The translations under genes were made by a program, and so were the position numbers. The notes under the pieces were generated by a model, which ran no database searches, was not told the origin of the DNA, and saw nothing but the letters and a program-made list of their open reading frames with translations. From a virus, in the IMG/VR virus record IMGVR_UViG_3300020428_000083, positions 1 through 23,820 of that record: 23,820 nt of DNA. The stretch is one strand, 5' to 3'. Shown here one piece after another: positions 3 to 13,832 of the stretch (positions are counted from its first letter, which is position 1; every line of letters begins with the position of its first letter).

Positions 3-1499
3 AATAGAATTCGTATTATTCCTCGCCCCGACGGTTTTCTTGATCGTAATGTAGGCTCGAGTGGAGAAGTATTCTATGACAAACAAGCAAATACTTTAAG
101 GCTATATGATGGCAAGTTAGCTGGCGGCTATACATTATTAACATCAGGAAATTTATCACAACAACTTAGTGCATCTGGAGTTGCTGTTTTAGAAAAAACT
201 GTTACTGTAGGAGTTGACACAGTAGCAAGTCAAGGATCCGGTGTATTTTATATTGACGGTGTAGAAAAACCTCAACTTAATTTAGTTAGAGGATACACGT
301 ATGTCTTTGATCAAAGCGATGCAACTAACGAAAACTATGCTAGTTTATACCACCCATTAATGTTTAGTACAGTAGAGAACGGTGAACTTGCAGGTGGTGG
401 ACATTATAATACAGGTGTTGTTTATTTGTTAGATGATGATCCTGTTACAATGGCAAAATATGTGTCAGGATTTCAAGCAGCTACTACAAGAAAAGTTTTA
501 CTTACAGTAAAAACTAGCACACCTAATTCACTTTTTTATTGGTGTCATTTTCATTTAAATCAAGGAAACAGTATTACAGTTGCAGACCCAGGAACAGGCT
601 CTGGCAGCGGTGGAGGCGGTGGATCAGCTAGTGTAGAAGTTTCTGACACAGTACCAGCTACTCCTACATCAGGTAATATATGGTTTAATAGTTCAAGTGG
701 TAGATTGTATGTATACGCAGGCGACACAGATAGTAATCAATGGGTGCAACCAACTGTGCCGGTTTTTCCAACATTTAAAACAGTAGCAATTAAAGACAGC
801 GATAGTGCTACAATAGTAGCATCATCAGTAGCTGATACACTTACCTTTGAACAAGGTACTGGAATAGATTTACAAATTAATAGTGCTACAAATACTCTTA
901 CAATTACTTCTGCTTCAAGCAGCAGTGTAGGTAATTTTAGTTTTGCATCTAGTATTATTGATACAGATGATAGTAGTAGTATTATAATTACACCCAGTGT
1001 TACAGTAAGTAGCGACTTAACTGTAGAAAATGATTTAGTTGTAAACAACACATTGTCTGCAAAACAGTTTATTAATACAAGTATAGGAGCACCAATATTA
1101 GATAGTGCATCAACACTTTCATTTGTTGCCCCAGATGGTGTATTAATAAGAGGTGAATTAAAATTAGAAAACAATAACATCACAGGCGTAGGTACAATTA
1201 ACAATGAACCTACACCTTTTATCATGGGAGTGCTAGATGGTAGCACAAACGCATGGTCAGGAGGAGGAGTTTCAGGAATAGTTGATAATGCCGTAGGCGA
1301 TCATACACTAACATTTACTTCAAATCTTGGTACCACTGTAGACGATTTCCAAGTACTTGCAACAGTGCAAGATAAAACAGCTGGCCACAGTTGTGTAATA
1401 TCAAAACCAGCTGTAAATCAAATTAGAGTTAATGTAGATAATTTATCAGGAACAGGAGTAGATTCCAAGGTATTTCTTGTAATTTATAAAACAGCATAA
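3..1499 (+). CDS. Fibre-like virion structural protein with cupredoxin-like domain (5' partial)
   Basis: The reading frame is open from base 3 and has no ATG until 360, so the true start lies upstream of the window, probably only a few codons away because the visible N-terminus (RIIPRPDGFLDR) looks like the head of such proteins. About 498 codons are visible. In order they hold a short N-terminal region, a cupredoxin-like beta domain (about 215-585; His at 351, then Cys 543, His 552 and Gln 561 in the CHFHLNQ loop), a Gly/Ser linker (about 598-630), a W-box motif (SGNIWFNSSSGRLYVY), one copy of the repeat also found in the fibre at 3124, and a beta-rich C-terminus. Low complexity and Thr/Ser/Gly richness fit a tail fibre or other surface fibre. 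Its stop overlaps the protease start by one base (TAATG), so the two are translationally coupled. The exact role and receptor are unknown. Confidence 0.75.
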   Translation, partial: NRIRIIPRPDGFLDRNVGSSGEVFYDKQANTLRLYDGKLAGGYTLLTSGNLSQQLSASGVAVLEKTVTVGVDTVASQGSGVFYIDGVEKPQLNLVRGYTYVFDQSDATNENYASLYHPLMFSTVENGELAGGGHYNTGVVYLLDDDPVTMAKYVSGFQAATTRKVLLTVKTSTPNSLFYWCHFHLNQGNSITVADPGTGSGSGGGGGSASVEVSDTVPATPTSGNIWFNSSSGRLYVYAGDTDSNQWVQPTVPVFPTFKTVAIKDSDSATIVASSVADTLTFEQGTGIDLQINSATNTLTITSASSSSVGNFSFASSIIDTDDSSSIIITPSVTVSSDLTVENDLVVNNTLSAKQFINTSIGAPILDSASTLSFVAPDGVLIRGELKLENNNITGVGTINNEPTPFIMGVLDGSTNAWSGGGVSGIVDNAVGDHTLTFTSNLGTTVDDFQVLATVQDKTAGHSCVISKPAVNQIRVNVDNLSGTGVDSKVFLVIYKTA

Positions 1500-3100
1500 T
1501 GAGTGAAAAAGAATATATTGTAGTAGTAAAAAAAGGTGTAGACTTAGAAGTATTTGATGCTGATTTAGCATCAGATACTGGTGACAGTACTATTCCTGAA
1601 AGAGCTGTTACAGTAGCAAATCCTAGACTAGGATCAAAGAGAATGACACACTGGATGCTTACAGACGATGAAGCACAAGCCCTAAAAAACGATCCAAGAG
1701 TACTTGATGTAGAAATCCCTGTTGAGCAACGCGACGATATAGTTATACACCCACGTGCAATACAAACCGGAACGTTTAACAAAACAAATTCTTCAACAGG
1801 CATTAATTGGGGTCTAAACAGATGCGTAAGTGCTTCTAATAATTGGCCTTCAACTATCACAGAAAAAGTAGCGGCTGAGTATCCTTATGCATTAGACGGT
1901 ACAGGTGTAGATGTTGTTATACAAGATAGCGGCATTGAACCTAATCATCCTGAATGGCAAGACACTAATAGCAATTCAAGATTAAAACAAATTGATTGGT
2001 TTACAGAAAGTGGTATCTCAGGAACACAATCTGCAAGTTTTTATAGTGATACAGACGGACACGGTACTCATTGTGCAGGAATTAGTGCAGGCAAAACTTA
2101 TGGCTGGGCAAAGAATGCACATATATATGCACAAAAGGTCTCAGGATTAGAAGGTCCAGCAGATAGCAGTGGTATCAGTACGGCAAACTGCTTTGATACA
2201 ATACGATTATGGCACTCTGCAAAAACTAACGGCAGACCTACAGTTGTAAACATGAGTTGGGGATATTCTACAACATTAATTGGAACCCCTGATCCTACTA
2301 GCGGTACGCATTATAATGACAACACCGGTGTTATGGATACATGGACTTATGGTGATACAGGTTATACTACAGATAACAATATTTGGCAAAATACAGGATT
2401 TGTGCCTAATCAAAGAAGCGGTAATAGAACAATACCTGTAAGACTATCAAGTGTAGATGCAGAAATAGATGATATGATTGATGCTGGAATACATGTTATA
2501 ATTGCAGCTGGAAATGATTACACAGTTAGTGCTAAAGATACTGCTACTGCCGCAGATCATTTTAATGACAGCATACAAATAGGCGGAGTAACTTATTATT
2601 ATCATAGAGGCTCTAGTCCAAGATCTACAACTAATGAAGGTTTAGTAGTGGGAAGTATAGATGCTGATCTACAAGGTGAGTCAGATAAAATTGCACCATA
2701 TTCTACAAGAGGCCCAGCAGTTGATATTCTTGCTCCTGGTTCTAACATAGTTTCAGCTTGTAGTACTGCAAGTATATACACAACGGCAGCTTACCCTCCA
2801 GATACAACTTACAAAATTACAAATATTGATGGTACGAGTTTTGCAGCTCCACAAGTTGCAGGATTAGCAGCTCTTTATTTACAAGTACTTCCAAACTTAA
2901 CTACAAGCGAATTAAAAACAAAAATACTTAATGATTCATTAAGTGTTGTATATGATAACCCTAATGCATATCAAGGTCCGCCTTTAAATTATTTAAATTA
3001 TGGTAACGGACTATACGGAACTCCAAATAAAATGATGTTTAGTAAATATGGCCGTAATTCATCTTTTGAAATAAAAGGTAGTCTTAATGTTAACATGTAA
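1499..3100 (+). CDS. Subtilisin-like serine protease (peptidase S8)
   Basis: 533 aa with a complete S8 catalytic set: Asp143 (VIQDSGIE), His188 (DGHGTHCAG), oxyanion Asn339 (IIAAGND) and Ser447 (DGTSFAAPQVAG). Residues about 5-78 look like an inhibitor-I9 propeptide (YIVVVKKG at the start, DPRVLDVEIP near the end), which in subtilisins folds the enzyme and is then cleaved. There is no signal peptide, so the product probably acts in the lysing cell or on the virion. An insertion of about 50 residues after the NMSWG strand (257-315) is longer than in secreted subtilisins. It is translationally coupled to the upstream fibre gene and followed by another fibre, so it may mature a fibre protein or digest a host surface protein. 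The family call is firm; the substrate is inference. Confidence 0.93.
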   Translation: MSEKEYIVVVKKGVDLEVFDADLASDTGDSTIPERAVTVANPRLGSKRMTHWMLTDDEAQALKNDPRVLDVEIPVEQRDDIVIHPRAIQTGTFNKTNSSTGINWGLNRCVSASNNWPSTITEKVAAEYPYALDGTGVDVVIQDSGIEPNHPEWQDTNSNSRLKQIDWFTESGISGTQSASFYSDTDGHGTHCAGISAGKTYGWAKNAHIYAQKVSGLEGPADSSGISTANCFDTIRLWHSAKTNGRPTVVNMSWGYSTTLIGTPDPTSGTHYNDNTGVMDTWTYGDTGYTTDNNIWQNTGFVPNQRSGNRTIPVRLSSVDAEIDDMIDAGIHVIIAAGNDYTVSAKDTATAADHFNDSIQIGGVTYYYHRGSSPRSTTNEGLVVGSIDADLQGESDKIAPYSTRGPAVDILAPGSNIVSACSTASIYTTAAYPPDTTYKITNIDGTSFAAPQVAGLAALYLQVLPNLTTSELKTKILNDSLSVVYDNPNAYQGPPLNYLNYGNGLYGTPNKMMFSKYGRNSSFEIKGSLNVNM

Positions 3101-3123: not shown

Positions 3124-4965
3124 ATGGCTATTAATTTTCCAAATACCCCAGTAGTAGATGACATATACACAGAAGGTGGTTCATCTTGGCAATGGGACGG
3201 TACTGCGTGGAATGCTTTAGGTGCAGGTATTACACCTCCTAGTGTAGATCAATTTAAAACGTTTAATGCTGATACAGGTACTACTACAGCAAATACACAA
3301 AACGATGTGCTTACAGTAGCAGGTGGCACTGATGTAACTACTAGTATAACAGGCGATATACTAACTATTAATGCATCAGTATCTGCGGGAGACTCAAATC
3401 AAAATGCATTTAGTAATGTAGGTACCGATGCAGGAACAGTTGTTGCATCAACTACGACAGATACTTTTAATATTCAAGGTGGTACCAAAATAGCTACCCA
3501 AGCAAATGATAAAACTATCACTATTGATGTTGATAATTTAGGCATAAATGATCTAATAGACGTTGATACAGCATCAAGTGCTCCATCTAGTGGACAAGTG
3601 TTAAAATGGAACGGCGTTAATTGGGCTCCTGGAACAGATGCAACATCAGGCGGTGGTGGATCAGATGCTGATACCTTAGACGGATTTGATGGAAGTTATT
3701 ATTTAAATTATAACAATTTAAGTAACAGACCTAATATCAATAGTTTTACAACAGTTACAGTAAACGGACAAAATAACGTTGTTGCAGATGCTGCAAGTGA
3801 TACAATAACTTATGTTGCAGGCTCAGGAATTAGTCTTACTACAAATGCTGTGACAGACTCTATTACATTTGAAAACTCTGCACCAAACGTTGATCAAAAT
3901 ATTTTTAAGACTTTTAATGCAGACAGTGGCACAACAACAGCAAATTCTACAACTGATACACTAACTATAGCAGGCGGTACTGGATTAACTTCAAATCTTG
4001 TAGGAGATACACTAACTCTTAATGTAAATTCTTCGTTAAGTTTTGCAGGCGAAACAACTCTTAATGCTGGTAGTAACAATCTTAATTTAAGTACAACTAA
4101 TGGCGATGTTATGGTTAGTGCTAACGGCGGAAGAGTATCAATAGAATCAGCCGTTGGCAACTTAGAAATACTAAACACAGCAGCTAGTCCAGCAAATGTA
4201 AAAATACAATCTGCTGGCGGCGTAATTTTTAGTAACGGAACTACGCAATATATTTTTCCAGTAAATGACGGCACCGCAGACCAAGTGCTACAAACAAATG
4301 GTTCAGGTGTATTATCATTTGCAGATGTATCCGGTGGTGGTGGAGGAGAAGCTAATCAAAATGCATTTAGTACTATTGCGGTAGCAGGACAAAGTAATAT
4401 TGAAGCTGATACTGCAACAGATACATTAAATGTAGCTGCAGGTGCAGGTATTTCTCTTACTAATACTCCTGGAACAGACACAATAACAATAACAAATACA
4501 GTATCGGCAGGTGCGGCAAACTTTATACAATTAGGTGACATTGCACAGTCATTAGCATCAGGATATGGTAGTAACTTAACACCAGATCAAATATTTGAAA
4601 ATGCTATTGTTACTTTAAGAGTTGGCGCAACTGGCAACAACAGTGCATACTTGTTTAACAGTCATTACAGTGGAAACAATCCAACAATATATGCACTAAG
4701 CGGAACTACTATTGCATTTGATTTAACAGGTAGTGCAGGACATCCTTTCGAAATTCAAGATGGTACTGGCACAGCTTACAACATAGGATTAGTACACGTT
4801 GGTGGTGACGGTTCAGTTAATACAGGGTCAAATGCTCAAAATAAAGAGTTTGGAACATTATATTGGAGAATACCGGAATCAATTTCCGGCGGTTATAGAT
4901 ATCAATGTACAGCTCATGCACCAATGGTTGGTTCTATACAAGTTAAACGTTTCTCAGCTATTTAG
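3124..4965 (+). CDS. Tail fibre-like structural protein with C-terminal cupredoxin-like domain
   Basis: 613 aa, preceded by AGAGG. The N-terminus has a W-box (SSWQWDGTAWNALG, residues 20-33). Five copies of a repeat of about 42 aa follow (near residues 43-84, 95-136, 207-250, 260-302 and 413-462), with the pattern F-x-T, then Ala-Asp/Asn, DTLT, a Gly-rich turn and DTITI. Between repeats lies DADTLDGFDG plus YYLNYNNLSNRP (about 181-203), a motif frequent in tail fibres of marine T4-like phages. The last 90 residues form a cupredoxin-like domain with His540, Cys595, His598 and Met601. The gene ends seven bases inside the converging minus-strand gene. It is probably a trimeric fibre or fibre-like virion protein; which fibre is unknown. 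Confidence 0.8.
   Translation: MAINFPNTPVVDDIYTEGGSSWQWDGTAWNALGAGITPPSVDQFKTFNADTGTTTANTQNDVLTVAGGTDVTTSITGDILTINASVSAGDSNQNAFSNVGTDAGTVVASTTTDTFNIQGGTKIATQANDKTITIDVDNLGINDLIDVDTASSAPSSGQVLKWNGVNWAPGTDATSGGGGSDADTLDGFDGSYYLNYNNLSNRPNINSFTTVTVNGQNNVVADAASDTITYVAGSGISLTTNAVTDSITFENSAPNVDQNIFKTFNADSGTTTANSTTDTLTIAGGTGLTSNLVGDTLTLNVNSSLSFAGETTLNAGSNNLNLSTTNGDVMVSANGGRVSIESAVGNLEILNTAASPANVKIQSAGGVIFSNGTTQYIFPVNDGTADQVLQTNGSGVLSFADVSGGGGGEANQNAFSTIAVAGQSNIEADTATDTLNVAAGAGISLTNTPGTDTITITNTVSAGAANFIQLGDIAQSLASGYGSNLTPDQIFENAIVTLRVGATGNNSAYLFNSHYSGNNPTIYALSGTTIAFDLTGSAGHPFEIQDGTGTAYNIGLVHVGGDGSVNTGSNAQNKEFGTLYWRIPESISGGYRYQCTAHAPMVGSIQVKRFSAI
3250..4509 (+). repeat. Degenerate intragenic repeats of a fibre module
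   Basis: Five related segments of about 126 bp code for the fibre repeat. Copies 1 and 4 are the closest pair (protein KTFNADTGTTTAN versus KTFNADSGTTTAN). A perfect 19-base match lies at 3397-3415 and 4354-4372, at the start of copies 2 and 5. One more copy of the protein module lies in the upstream fibre gene near 765-925, so the repeat is shared between genes. Confidence 0.75.
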
Positions 4966-5221
4966 AATCTTTAATTATTTTTTCAATTTCAGCAACACAA
5001 TCGTGAATTTTAATTCTAGTGTCACGCAAATTTTGCGGTTTAATATAACCGTTTAGTGTTGTATCGTGTACAGTATTAACTTCGGTAGCATGTTCTTGTA
5101 GTTCAGATACTAAGTTCATTACCATGATTTTTGCTTTAGGATTATGAGTATTTTGAATAAATCTATTAAAACGTTTTAAATCGTATACAAATTTTTCTTC
5201 TTTAAATAAATCGTAAATCAT
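4958..5221 (-). CDS. Hypothetical protein, last gene of the gp14 late operon
   Basis: 87 aa and predicted mainly helical, with charged helices at both ends (KEEKFVYDLKRFNRF and EIEKIIKDSK). No family is recognised. Its start overlaps the cupin stop by four bases (ATGA), so it is coupled to that gene. Its 3' end overlaps the end of the convergent fibre gene by eight bases, and no terminator is visible between the two. Coding is supported by tight packing in the operon and normal amino-acid composition. Confidence 0.65.
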   Translation of the reverse strand: MIYDLFKEEKFVYDLKRFNRFIQNTHNPKAKIMVMNLVSELQEHATEVNTVHDTTLNGYIKPQNLRDTRIKIHDCVAEIEKIIKDSK

Positions 5222-5574
5222 TTAATATTATTTGCACTAATTACTGTAAAAACATCAGTTGGCAAAAAACTATTAGATACTTCATTAATGCTTCCTGTTG
5301 TTTCTAAACATTCCCAACTATGTGGATGTAATGGCGGAGCGTGATAAACATCTCCTTCTTTTAATTCTTTTTGTAACAATTTTCCAGACTGTGTGTCAAT
5401 AAACCTTAATAAAAATTTACCATTGTTTATAAAGAATGTTTTATTAGCATCAGAATGAAAACGTAAATCAGTCTTTGCATTTTTGTTTTCAAATAATAAA
5501 ATTTTTGCAACATATCCTGGTTGCATTGCCCAAACAAGTTCCTTGCCCCATTTATGATTGTTTACTTGACTCAT
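5218..5574 (-). CDS. Cupin-domain protein (phosphomannose-isomerase type II-like)
   Basis: 118 aa, a single small beta barrel. The N-terminus WGKELVWA and the body KTFFINNGKFLLRF ... EGDVYHAPPLHPHSWEC match cupins related to the C-terminal domain of type II mannose-6-phosphate isomerase. Of the usual metal ligands, His40 in motif 1 and His85 (or His83) in motif 2 can be seen. The usual HxH is reduced to FH and the usual Glu is not evident, so catalysis is uncertain and a sugar-binding role is possible. The Shine-Dalgarno AGGAG lies just upstream, and the gene follows the Nudix gene after 8 bases. Such cupins in phages are often linked to nucleotide-sugar or glycan modification, but the substrate here is unknown. 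Confidence 0.75.
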   Translation of the reverse strand: MSQVNNHKWGKELVWAMQPGYVAKILLFENKNAKTDLRFHSDANKTFFINNGKFLLRFIDTQSGKLLQKELKEGDVYHAPPLHPHSWECLETTGSINEVSNSFLPTDVFTVISANNIK

Positions 5575-10460: not shown

Positions 10461-13400
10461 ATGGCATTAACATCACCAGGTGTACAAGTAAGTGTAATAG
10501 ACGAAAGCTTCTACACCCCAGCAGAACCGGGAACAGTCCCAATGGTTTTTGTTGCATCGGCAGAGAACAGATTAAACAGTTCGGGCACAGGTACAGCAAC
10601 AGGAACATTAAAAGCAAACGCAGGTAAGCCTTTCTTACTTACTTCGCAGAGAGATCTTTCAGAAACTTTTGGAGATCCAGTATTTAAAACAGATTCAAAT
10701 AACAACCCAATACACGCAGGCGAGCTTAACGAGTATGGTTTACAATCTGCATATTCATTCTTAGGAGTGAGCAACAGAGCATACGTTGTAAGAGCAGACT
10801 TAGATACAGCTCAATTAGAGCCAACTGCAATAGCACCAGCGGCAAATCCAGCAGCAGGAACATATTGGTTTGATACACAAGTATCACTATTTGGTATTCA
10901 ACAATGGAACGGTAGCGCCATTACTACTACTGGTGGACAAAGTTTCACTAATAAAGTTCCTAGAATGATTACAGCAGCTAGTGACACTGATTCAGGCTCG
11001 TTAGTTACAAACGGATACGAAGGCATGAAACCTAAGAGCAGCATTGGTGCTGTTGGTGATTATGCTATTGTAGCAACAAGCACATTAAACAGATTATACT
11101 ACAGAAACACAAGCGGTACATGGGTATTAGTAGGTAGTGATCCTTGGTCAAAGAGTTGGCCAACAGTTAAAGGCACACTTGTTAATCCTTCATTTAGCGG
11201 ATCGAGTTCGTTTACAATTAACGGTACTGTTGTTTCTGTTTCAGGTTCAGATACAGTAACTGATGTTGCAGCAACAATTAACGGATTGTTAATTTCAGGT
11301 GTAACAGCTAGTGCTGTTGACGGAAGATTAGAAATTTACAGTGATGGAACAGGATCGGCTGCAGGTGATTCAACTGCCGGCGGTAACATTGATGTTGTTC
11401 AAAGTTCAGGAACTGCTTTAGGATTATTAGGTATTACAGCAGGAACTTACTATCCACCAGCATTACAAATTTCAGGACATACATCAGTTCCAGAATTTAA
11501 GTCAAGCGACACTTATTCAAGACCAACAGGTAGTGTATGGTTTAAAACTACACAACCTAACTTAGGTGCAAGAATAAGAATTAAAGAATGGAACGATCAA
11601 ACACTTTTATGGGACGCTGTGGAAGCTCCAATTTACGACACTAACGAAGCAGCACTTTACGGTTTAGATAAAGCTAACGGTGGAAGCGGTATTGCAGTAG
11701 GCGATGTATTTGCTAAATCAAATACAGCAGGTGACACACAACCTCTTGCAACGTTTACTTTATACCGTAGATCAAACAGTGGTGTTACAAGTATTACTAG
11801 TAGCAAAGTAATTGCAGGAAGCCTAGGTTCAGGATCTAAGAGTTTTAATATTAAAGCAACAGATGCTGGGCAAACTTCTTGGGGTACAACTAGTACAGTA
11901 ACATTTACAGCTGGCGGTGTTGCAGGTGATGCAAGTTTACTTGCAGGTGCAATCAATGATAAAAATATTGAAAACGTAAGTGCATCAGTAGATACGCAGA
12001 ATAGAGTTGTAATTAGTCACTCACAAGGTGGCGATATACACCTAACAGACACAAGTGGTGCATTAGCTGGTATAGGTTACGCACCATATGTTAGTGCAAC
12101 TAGTGGTACTGTTGGCTTATCATATGCAGACGGAACTAACTCTAGCACAAGTCCAAATCAATTTATTGCAAGTAACTGGGCAGTGTTAACTTACACAGCA
12201 TCAGACAATGCACCTACAGCAACAGCAACTAACGGCCAACTTTGGTATAGTTCAGTTGTTGATGAAGTAGATTTACTTGTACACAACGGTACAACATGGG
12301 TAGGTTACTTATATAACGGTGGCACATCAGGAATAACAGCAAGTCCATATTACAACGCTGATGCATCATTAACACCAGACCCAAGTGGTCCAATTGTTAG
12401 TGCATCAGAACCAACTGTACAGTCAGACGGTACTGCACTTAAAACAGGTGATATTTGGATTAGCACAGCAGACTTAGAAAACTATCCAACAATGTATAGA
12501 TATAATGCGGCACTTGCTTCAGGATTAAGATGGGTACTATTAGATAGCAGTGATCAAACATCAGAAGATGGTATACTATTTGCTGATGCAAGATATGCTA
12601 CATCAGGTGGTACTGCTTCTTTATTAGAAGCTTCAAGCATTGAAGATTTACTTAACAGTGCTTACTTAGACACTGATGCTCCAGATCCAGCACTATATCC
12701 AAAAGGTATGTTGTTATGGAATACTAGACGTTCAGGATTTAACGTTAAGAAATTTGTAAGAAACTATGTTGATGTTTCTACAGACAACACAAGATATGCA
12801 CCAGGTGGAAGCGATGAGAGCATGGACAGTTACTATCCACACAGATGGGTAACTGAGTCAGGTAATCAAGAGAACGGCGCAGGTAGCTTTGGACGTAAAG
12901 CACAACGTAAAGTTGTTGTACAAGCGTTACAAGCAGTAGTTAATAAAAACGATGACATTAGAGATGATGAGTCAAGATTATTCAACTTAATGGCAACACC
13001 AGGATATCCAGAACTAATTGGTGAAATGATTAGCTTGAATAACGATAGAGGATTAACAGCATTTATCGTAGGTGATAGTCCGTTTAGACTAACACCAGAT
13101 GCAACATCACTTAATAACTGGGCAACTAACGTAAACAAAGCAGTAGAAGATAACGACAATGGATTAGTAAGTAGAGATGAATACTTAGGTGTATTTTATC
13201 CAGCAGGATTCACAAGTGATAACTTTGGTAGAAATGTTGTAGTTCCAGCTTCGCACATGATGTTAAGAACTATTGCATTAAGTGATCAAGTTAGCTATCC
13301 ATGGTTTGCACCAGCAGGCACAAGACGTGGCGGAATCAGCAATGCAAGTTCAACAGGTTATATTAATAGCGAAGGCGAATTTACAGCAGTAGCACTTAAT

Positions 13401-13832
13401 GAAGGACAAAGAGATACATTATACAGCAATAACATAAACCCAATTACGTTTATTACAGGTGCTGGACTTGTTAACTTTGGACAGAAAACTCGTGCAAGAG
13501 CAGCTAGTTCTTTAGATAGAATTAACGTAGCACGTTTGGTTATCTACTTACGTAGTCAACTTAATCAACTTGCTAAGCCTTACATCTTTGAGCCAAATGA
13601 TAAAATCACACGTGATGAGATTAAACAAGCGGCTGAAAGTTTAATGCTTGAATTAGTAGGTCAAAGAGCGTTATATGACTTCTTAGTAGTATGTGATGAA
13701 TCAAACAACACTGCATCTAGGATTGACAAGAACGAACTATATTTAGATATTGCAATAGAACCAGTAAAAGCAGTGGAGTTCATTTACATTCCATTAAGAC
13801 TTAAAAATACTGGAGAAATAGCAGGACTTTAA
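10461..13832 (+). CDS. gp18: Tail sheath protein (T4 gp18-like), greatly enlarged
   Basis: 1123 aa against 659 in T4. The N-terminal about 130 residues (TSPGVQVSVIDESFYTPAEP, SFLGVSNRAYVVRADLD) and the C-terminal about 400 (EYLGVFYPAGF, FGRNVVVPASHMMLRTIA, WFAPAGTRRGGI, LDRINVARLVIYLRSQL) are the conserved sheath handles and core. Between about 130 and 700 lies a large insertion that should decorate the outside of the tail. It holds four W-box turns (W near 136, 357, 593 and 664) and two segments resembling flagellin_IN motifs (about 245-328 and 475-540). Strong Shine-Dalgarno and its own late box indicate high expression, as needed for the main tail protein. The contractile sheath drives tube penetration. 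Identity is firm; the insertion's role is unknown. Confidence 0.93.
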   Translation: MALTSPGVQVSVIDESFYTPAEPGTVPMVFVASAENRLNSSGTGTATGTLKANAGKPFLLTSQRDLSETFGDPVFKTDSNNNPIHAGELNEYGLQSAYSFLGVSNRAYVVRADLDTAQLEPTAIAPAANPAAGTYWFDTQVSLFGIQQWNGSAITTTGGQSFTNKVPRMITAASDTDSGSLVTNGYEGMKPKSSIGAVGDYAIVATSTLNRLYYRNTSGTWVLVGSDPWSKSWPTVKGTLVNPSFSGSSSFTINGTVVSVSGSDTVTDVAATINGLLISGVTASAVDGRLEIYSDGTGSAAGDSTAGGNIDVVQSSGTALGLLGITAGTYYPPALQISGHTSVPEFKSSDTYSRPTGSVWFKTTQPNLGARIRIKEWNDQTLLWDAVEAPIYDTNEAALYGLDKANGGSGIAVGDVFAKSNTAGDTQPLATFTLYRRSNSGVTSITSSKVIAGSLGSGSKSFNIKATDAGQTSWGTTSTVTFTAGGVAGDASLLAGAINDKNIENVSASVDTQNRVVISHSQGGDIHLTDTSGALAGIGYAPYVSATSGTVGLSYADGTNSSTSPNQFIASNWAVLTYTASDNAPTATATNGQLWYSSVVDEVDLLVHNGTTWVGYLYNGGTSGITASPYYNADASLTPDPSGPIVSASEPTVQSDGTALKTGDIWISTADLENYPTMYRYNAALASGLRWVLLDSSDQTSEDGILFADARYATSGGTASLLEASSIEDLLNSAYLDTDAPDPALYPKGMLLWNTRRSGFNVKKFVRNYVDVSTDNTRYAPGGSDESMDSYYPHRWVTESGNQENGAGSFGRKAQRKVVVQALQAVVNKNDDIRDDESRLFNLMATPGYPELIGEMISLNNDRGLTAFIVGDSPFRLTPDATSLNNWATNVNKAVEDNDNGLVSRDEYLGVFYPAGFTSDNFGRNVVVPASHMMLRTIALSDQVSYPWFAPAGTRRGGISNASSTGYINSEGEFTAVALNEGQRDTLYSNNINPITFITGAGLVNFGQKTRARAASSLDRINVARLVIYLRSQLNQLAKPYIFEPNDKITRDEIKQAAESLMLELVGQRALYDFLVVCDESNNTASRIDKNELYLDIAIEPVKAVEFIYIPLRLKNTGEIAGL

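Follow-up and report, generated by a model that had tools for sequence, protein, structure and literature searches.

A predicted cupredoxin domain with the ligand set of a type 1 copper site at the C-terminus of a phage fibre protein

In a 613-aa fibre protein of a marine phage, the C-terminal ~110 residues are probably a cupredoxin whose type 1 site is complete and metal-competent, forming a metal-stabilised surface or attachment module. The protein is encoded in IMGVR_UViG_3300020428_000083, a 23.8-kb fragment of an uncultivated virus; the window analysed here is this whole stretch of 23,820 nucleotides. It carries genes for a contractile tail, head closure and the terminase, which marks the source virus as a myophage, and its terminase is nearest to those of PA5oct-like Pseudomonas phages (54%). 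The fibre ORF (positions 3124 to 4965, plus strand) has a whole-protein profile match (E 5.2e-70) to PHROG 677, the gp9-like baseplate wedge/tail fibre connector of cyanomyoviruses, and encodes a beta-repeat shaft followed by the C-terminal cupredoxin domain. This domain spans approximately residues 498 to 608 (4615 to 4947, plus strand), as delimited by the family HMM envelope, the high-confidence core of an AlphaFold2 model, and Foldseek and VIA matches. A first-pass annotation, made from the sequence alone, had placed it at the fibre "tip"; this word describes just the C-terminus of the sequence.

Reading of the ORF bore out exactly the four residues that the first-pass annotation had named as type 1 copper ligands: His540 (4741 to 4743), Cys595 (4906 to 4908), His598 (4915 to 4917) and Met601 (4924 to 4926), all on the plus strand and all identified by sequence and alignment. 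They follow the order of a type 1 site, with His, Cys and His as equatorial ligands and Met as the axial one, and the last three lie in the loop YQCTAHAPM with the C-x2-H-x2-M spacing of amicyanin, as had been claimed. Cys595 is the sole cysteine in the fibre protein, which rules out its use in a disulfide. The reading of the HPF motif at His540 as plastocyanin-like was mistaken, since both plastocyanin and amicyanin have His-Asn (PHN) at this position. A His-Pro pair at the type 1 His is the arrangement of multicopper oxidases (HPxHLHG).

The AlphaFold2 model of the domain (42 sequences) has a pLDDT of 84.7 overall and 94 to 97 across the cupredoxin core. In a Foldseek comparison of the fibre domain with the PDB, the best 50 matches were all cupredoxins or cupredoxin domains of copper oxidases (best E 3e-6), and VIA-align gave Z scores of up to 10.9. 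The tightest superposition of the top group was on the N-terminal cupredoxin of Hyphomicrobium NirK (2dv6), with Z 10.8 and 2.1 Å over 95 residues at 23% identity. In the strands predicted by DSSP, His540 (model residue 74) lies directly ahead of strand 76-80, Cys595 (model 129) ends the penultimate strand, 123-129, and His598 and Met601 (model 132 and 135) occupy the loop ahead of the last strand, 136-142. This placement in the predicted topology fits that of the type 1 site in blue copper proteins. The first-pass annotation had staked its proposal on a Greek-key barrel, and AlphaFold2 and Foldseek do return a cupredoxin; by prediction and homology together, the fold of the fibre C-terminal domain is nearly certain.

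Sequence comparison points the same way once the family is considered. Searched as a single sequence, the window domain drew no noteworthy Pfam family and nothing related in the PDB, and a family profile was needed. When a profile of 37 relatives was run against PDB sequences, the best 60 of 76 matches were all either cupredoxins or other copper proteins that contain a cupredoxin domain; the best was rusticyanin (7e-5), in whose alignments all four ligand positions were aligned. A second profile (A2) retrieved NirK (5e-6) and amicyanin (2e-5), with Cys, the second His and Met aligned; the first His was in register with the P52G mutant of amicyanin and shifted in the wild-type-like PHN sequences. 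Among PDB sequences, profiles of the family therefore recover plastocyanin as well as rusticyanin, amicyanin and NirK, in line with the profile check suggested in the first-pass annotation. Pfam PF00127 (Copper-bind) gave no match for the window domain and weak matches (E up to 1) for 25 of the 37 family members, the best at 5.8e-5. Likewise, the NCBIfam amicyanin model TIGR02657 did not match the window domain and weakly matched 18 of the 37, the best at 1e-6; the sole NCBIfam match of the window domain was to halocyanin, at E 1.6e-4, far under the cut-off.

Among the nearest known copper proteins, amicyanin shares the cupredoxin barrel and the length of the C-x2-H-x2-M loop; however, it carries electrons as a free protein of the periplasm and has PHN at the first His, whereas the fibre domain has GHPF there and forms part of a phage fibre. 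In rusticyanin the first His stands in GH(S/P)F with no Asn beside it, and all of the ligand columns align, but rusticyanin has a longer loop (C-x4-H-x4-M) and an N-terminal extension, and it serves as an acid-stable electron carrier in iron oxidation. The N-terminal cupredoxins of three-domain Cu nitrite reductases (2dv6 and 6tfo) superimpose with Z 10.5-10.8 and 2.1-2.6 Å over 95-97 residues, at 23-24% identity; unlike the fibre domain, they are part of an enzyme and supply electrons to a catalytic copper.

The first-pass annotation regarded a copper-ligand domain on a phage fibre as unusual. Quite the opposite, the domain is widespread in marine phages: INPHARED has 343 records with a match at E 1 or below, almost all of them from cyanophages, and scans of IMG/VR added hundreds more loci with the cupredoxin family. 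Where the matching isolates have names, they are marine cyanophages together with a small number of other phages from the sea; cultured cyanophages with the domain include S-SSM5, S-RIM2, Syn33 and P-HM1. Most of the INPHARED matches are on gp9, but the domain also occurs in structural proteins annotated as hypothetical, in an S8 peptidase and in a podovirus gene, and predicted viral structures in BFVD show the same domain in tail fibres, S8 peptidases and the proximal fibres of P-SSM2. Across marine phages, the carriers are gp9-like fibre connectors, gp7/gp10-like baseplate proteins, tail fibres and S8 peptidases.

Ligand conservation bears on the main rival explanation, structural reuse, under which the barrel serves only as a stable knob, with the Cys, His and Met maintained by packing or descent and no metal bound in nature. 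In a set of 313 unique copies from 274 loci, whose members were not chosen by ligand content, 248 have the full ligand set, 56 have none and nine have part of it. The ligand-less copies speak for reuse; they fall mostly in one clade, are common in the baseplate protein adjoining gp9 in cyanophages, and are still matched by the family profile. Moreover, a close relative (L022, 3001-3354, 66%) has Leu in place of His540 and Phe in place of His598 (LPF, CPSFTPM) and keeps the Cys and Met; both His are gone together, yet the gene is retained. Judged from its sequence, this copy is a natural apo-site control. The His-Pro pair, which is not that of the classical small blue proteins, also sits well with reuse.

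Against this stands the behavior of the ligand columns at greater divergence. Among copies less than 60% identical that have the loop, the Cys persists in 46 of 49, the His in 46 of 49 and the Met in 44 of 46; these columns are among the most conserved, whereas the x residues of C-x-x-H-x-x-M change freely from copy to copy. The ligand set is no coincidence: in the A2 alignment, whose 42 non-redundant copies had been selected because all four ligands were present, the invariant columns are H540, P541, Y593, C595, H598 and M601; His-Asn at the first ligand, the trait of amicyanin and plastocyanin, is absent from it and His-Pro is invariant. With His-Pro where classical small blue proteins have His-Asn, the second-sphere geometry differs, and the redox potential may be altered. 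Ligand losses, furthermore, are mostly complete rather than piecemeal, a further point against reuse, and the joint loss of both His in L022 also speaks for the metal-site reading. The tree has at least eight changes of ligand state, but its resolution is poor and an independent-pairs test of concerted loss was not significant, so that concerted loss of the ligands is suggestive at most. The all-or-none pattern (248/56/9) derives from few independent losses, a counterpoint to be set against the metal-site reading. On balance we consider structural reuse unlikely.

A second cupredoxin copy, of a longer subtype, lies in the window at 201 to 581 (plus strand), within a structural ORF at 3 to 1499. 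It was identified by HMM (2.7e-19), AlphaFold2 (pLDDT 93.1, pTM 0.87) and VIA (best Z 8.7, the best matches being multicopper oxidases, NirK and rusticyanin); its weaker Foldseek matches include Ig-like domains. The putative ligands, on the plus strand, are His (351 to 353), Cys (543 to 545), His (552 to 554) and an axial Gln (561 to 563). A profile of the long subtype (A3), restricted to copies that keep the Cys, found nothing in PDB sequences at E 1, and assignment of this subtype therefore rests on the fold comparison together with hhalign of A3 to A2 (96% probability, E 2.5e-9). In the long subtype the axial residue is Met, Gln or Lys and the equatorial H-C-H is mostly held. Known type 1 sites vary likewise, with changes in the axial residue and the equatorial ones held, and packing, as supposed under structural reuse, accounts poorly for an M/Q/K axial change beside a near-constant H-C-H. 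The H-C-H-Q set of the second copy resembles the axial Gln of stellacyanin, an analogy of residues only, as plant phytocyanins were not matched directly.

Between the two cupredoxin copies lies an S8 peptidase (subtilase) gene (1499 to 3100, plus strand; Pfam PF00082, 1.8e-35) that belongs to phrog_9158. In phrog_9158, residues 1-551 match subtilase and residues 600-695 match cupredoxin. The window subtilase lacks the C-terminal cupredoxin that its PHROG relatives have, and here the domain is on the neighboring gene. The presence of the cupredoxin at the C-terminus of phrog_9158 proteins in other phages suggests that the module moves between neighboring virion proteins.

Cellular relatives exist. 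One scan of genome contigs gave a match in a Croceitalea MAG, where the adjoining genes are, as we take them from their sequences, rpsP- and rimM-like; a profile search of the class to which this MAG belongs matched 15 of 295 genomes. Several Bacteroidota matches consist of a signal peptide, a collagen-like repeat and a C-terminal cupredoxin with all ligands. Four of these secreted collagen-like repeat proteins (L277, L279, L280 and L282) end in the same cupredoxin subtype with four of four ligands, L282 having one additional residue ahead of the Met; in another relative (L275) the cupredoxin comes after HPGHIH-type repeats. Most of the cellular relatives keep the ligands, and the Bacteroidota collagen-like proteins share with the phage fibre a layout of fibre plus cupredoxin.

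A full ligand set conserved over hundreds of marine phage copies indicates that the virus particles probably carry a metal site. It is quite likely that the fibre domain binds metal, and copper is somewhat favored over zinc as the metal bound. A counterpoint to a copper site is that phage proteins fold in the reducing cytoplasm, where there is little free copper. The cupredoxin family is modular, and marine phages have attached it to many proteins of the adsorption apparatus. In the mechanism we propose, copper or another soft metal would be loaded into the domain after release of the virion, and the loaded domain would give fibre and baseplate a compact surface or attachment module stabilised by the metal. 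Both the attachment role and the surface exposure of the domain are presumed, the former from its location. We find electron transfer less plausible than such a module. A redox role, in which electron exchange with host surface or periplasmic carriers, or redox sensing, triggers attachment or tail firing, could draw on the complete electron-transfer ligand set and on the electron carriers and copper oxidases that are the closest folds; however, many copies are without ligands and a virion fibre offers no obvious circuit, which makes this role very improbable. A photosynthesis-specific role in cyanobacteria is likewise not favored, given the terminase affinity noted above.

In the open literature that we surveyed, we found no mention of a cupredoxin or blue copper protein on phage tails or in cyanophages. 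The cupredoxin fold itself is old and known; what was not found there is any account of marine phages using it systematically, with all ligands in place, on their fibres. The nearest published concept is the HxH-bound iron of tail fibres, as in T4 gp37 and alterophage R22Y (PMC11705849). As with the fibre cupredoxin, a metal site has been proposed for the tail fibre of a phage, but the HxH sites contain octahedral, His-coordinated iron in a trimeric fibre, with no cupredoxin fold and no Cys or Met (PMC11705849). By analogy with the iron Ferrojan hypothesis, copper or another metal bound to the fibre might mimic a metal source and dock the phage on the metal-uptake receptors of its host. The same role has been proposed for the marine phage tail fibres with HxH iron (PMC11705849), and the named isolates with the domain are marine; the structural difference of the HxH sites and the occurrence of copies within baseplate proteins and peptidases make such a lure improbable, if less so than the redox role.

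If the metal-stabilised module does bind metal, very abundant marine viruses show copper proteins on their tails, and phage adsorption is tied to trace-metal chemistry, a copper counterpart of the iron Trojan-horse idea. A broader and more tentative proposal, which we regard as possible and rather doubtful, is that functional type 1 copper centers are a feature of marine tailed phages as a group, that they sit on the adsorption apparatus, often with several kinds in one virion (axial Met and axial Gln), and that they serve in recognising the host or in triggering. Were this true, they would constitute a class of viral metalloprotein so far undescribed, and phages would be a pool of copper-binding ligands in seawater. 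There is also a hazard for annotation: domains that resemble plastocyanin, amicyanin or nitrite reductase could be miscalled as auxiliary metabolic genes.

Two other genes in the window deserve mention. A small gene at 5218-5574 (minus strand) has a PHROG match to cysteine dioxygenase (phrog_7851, 3e-14); it adjoins a NUDIX hydrolase gene and lies within the structural cluster on the opposite strand. The tail sheath protein (10461-13832) is 1123 aa long, and T4-type sheaths are about half that length.
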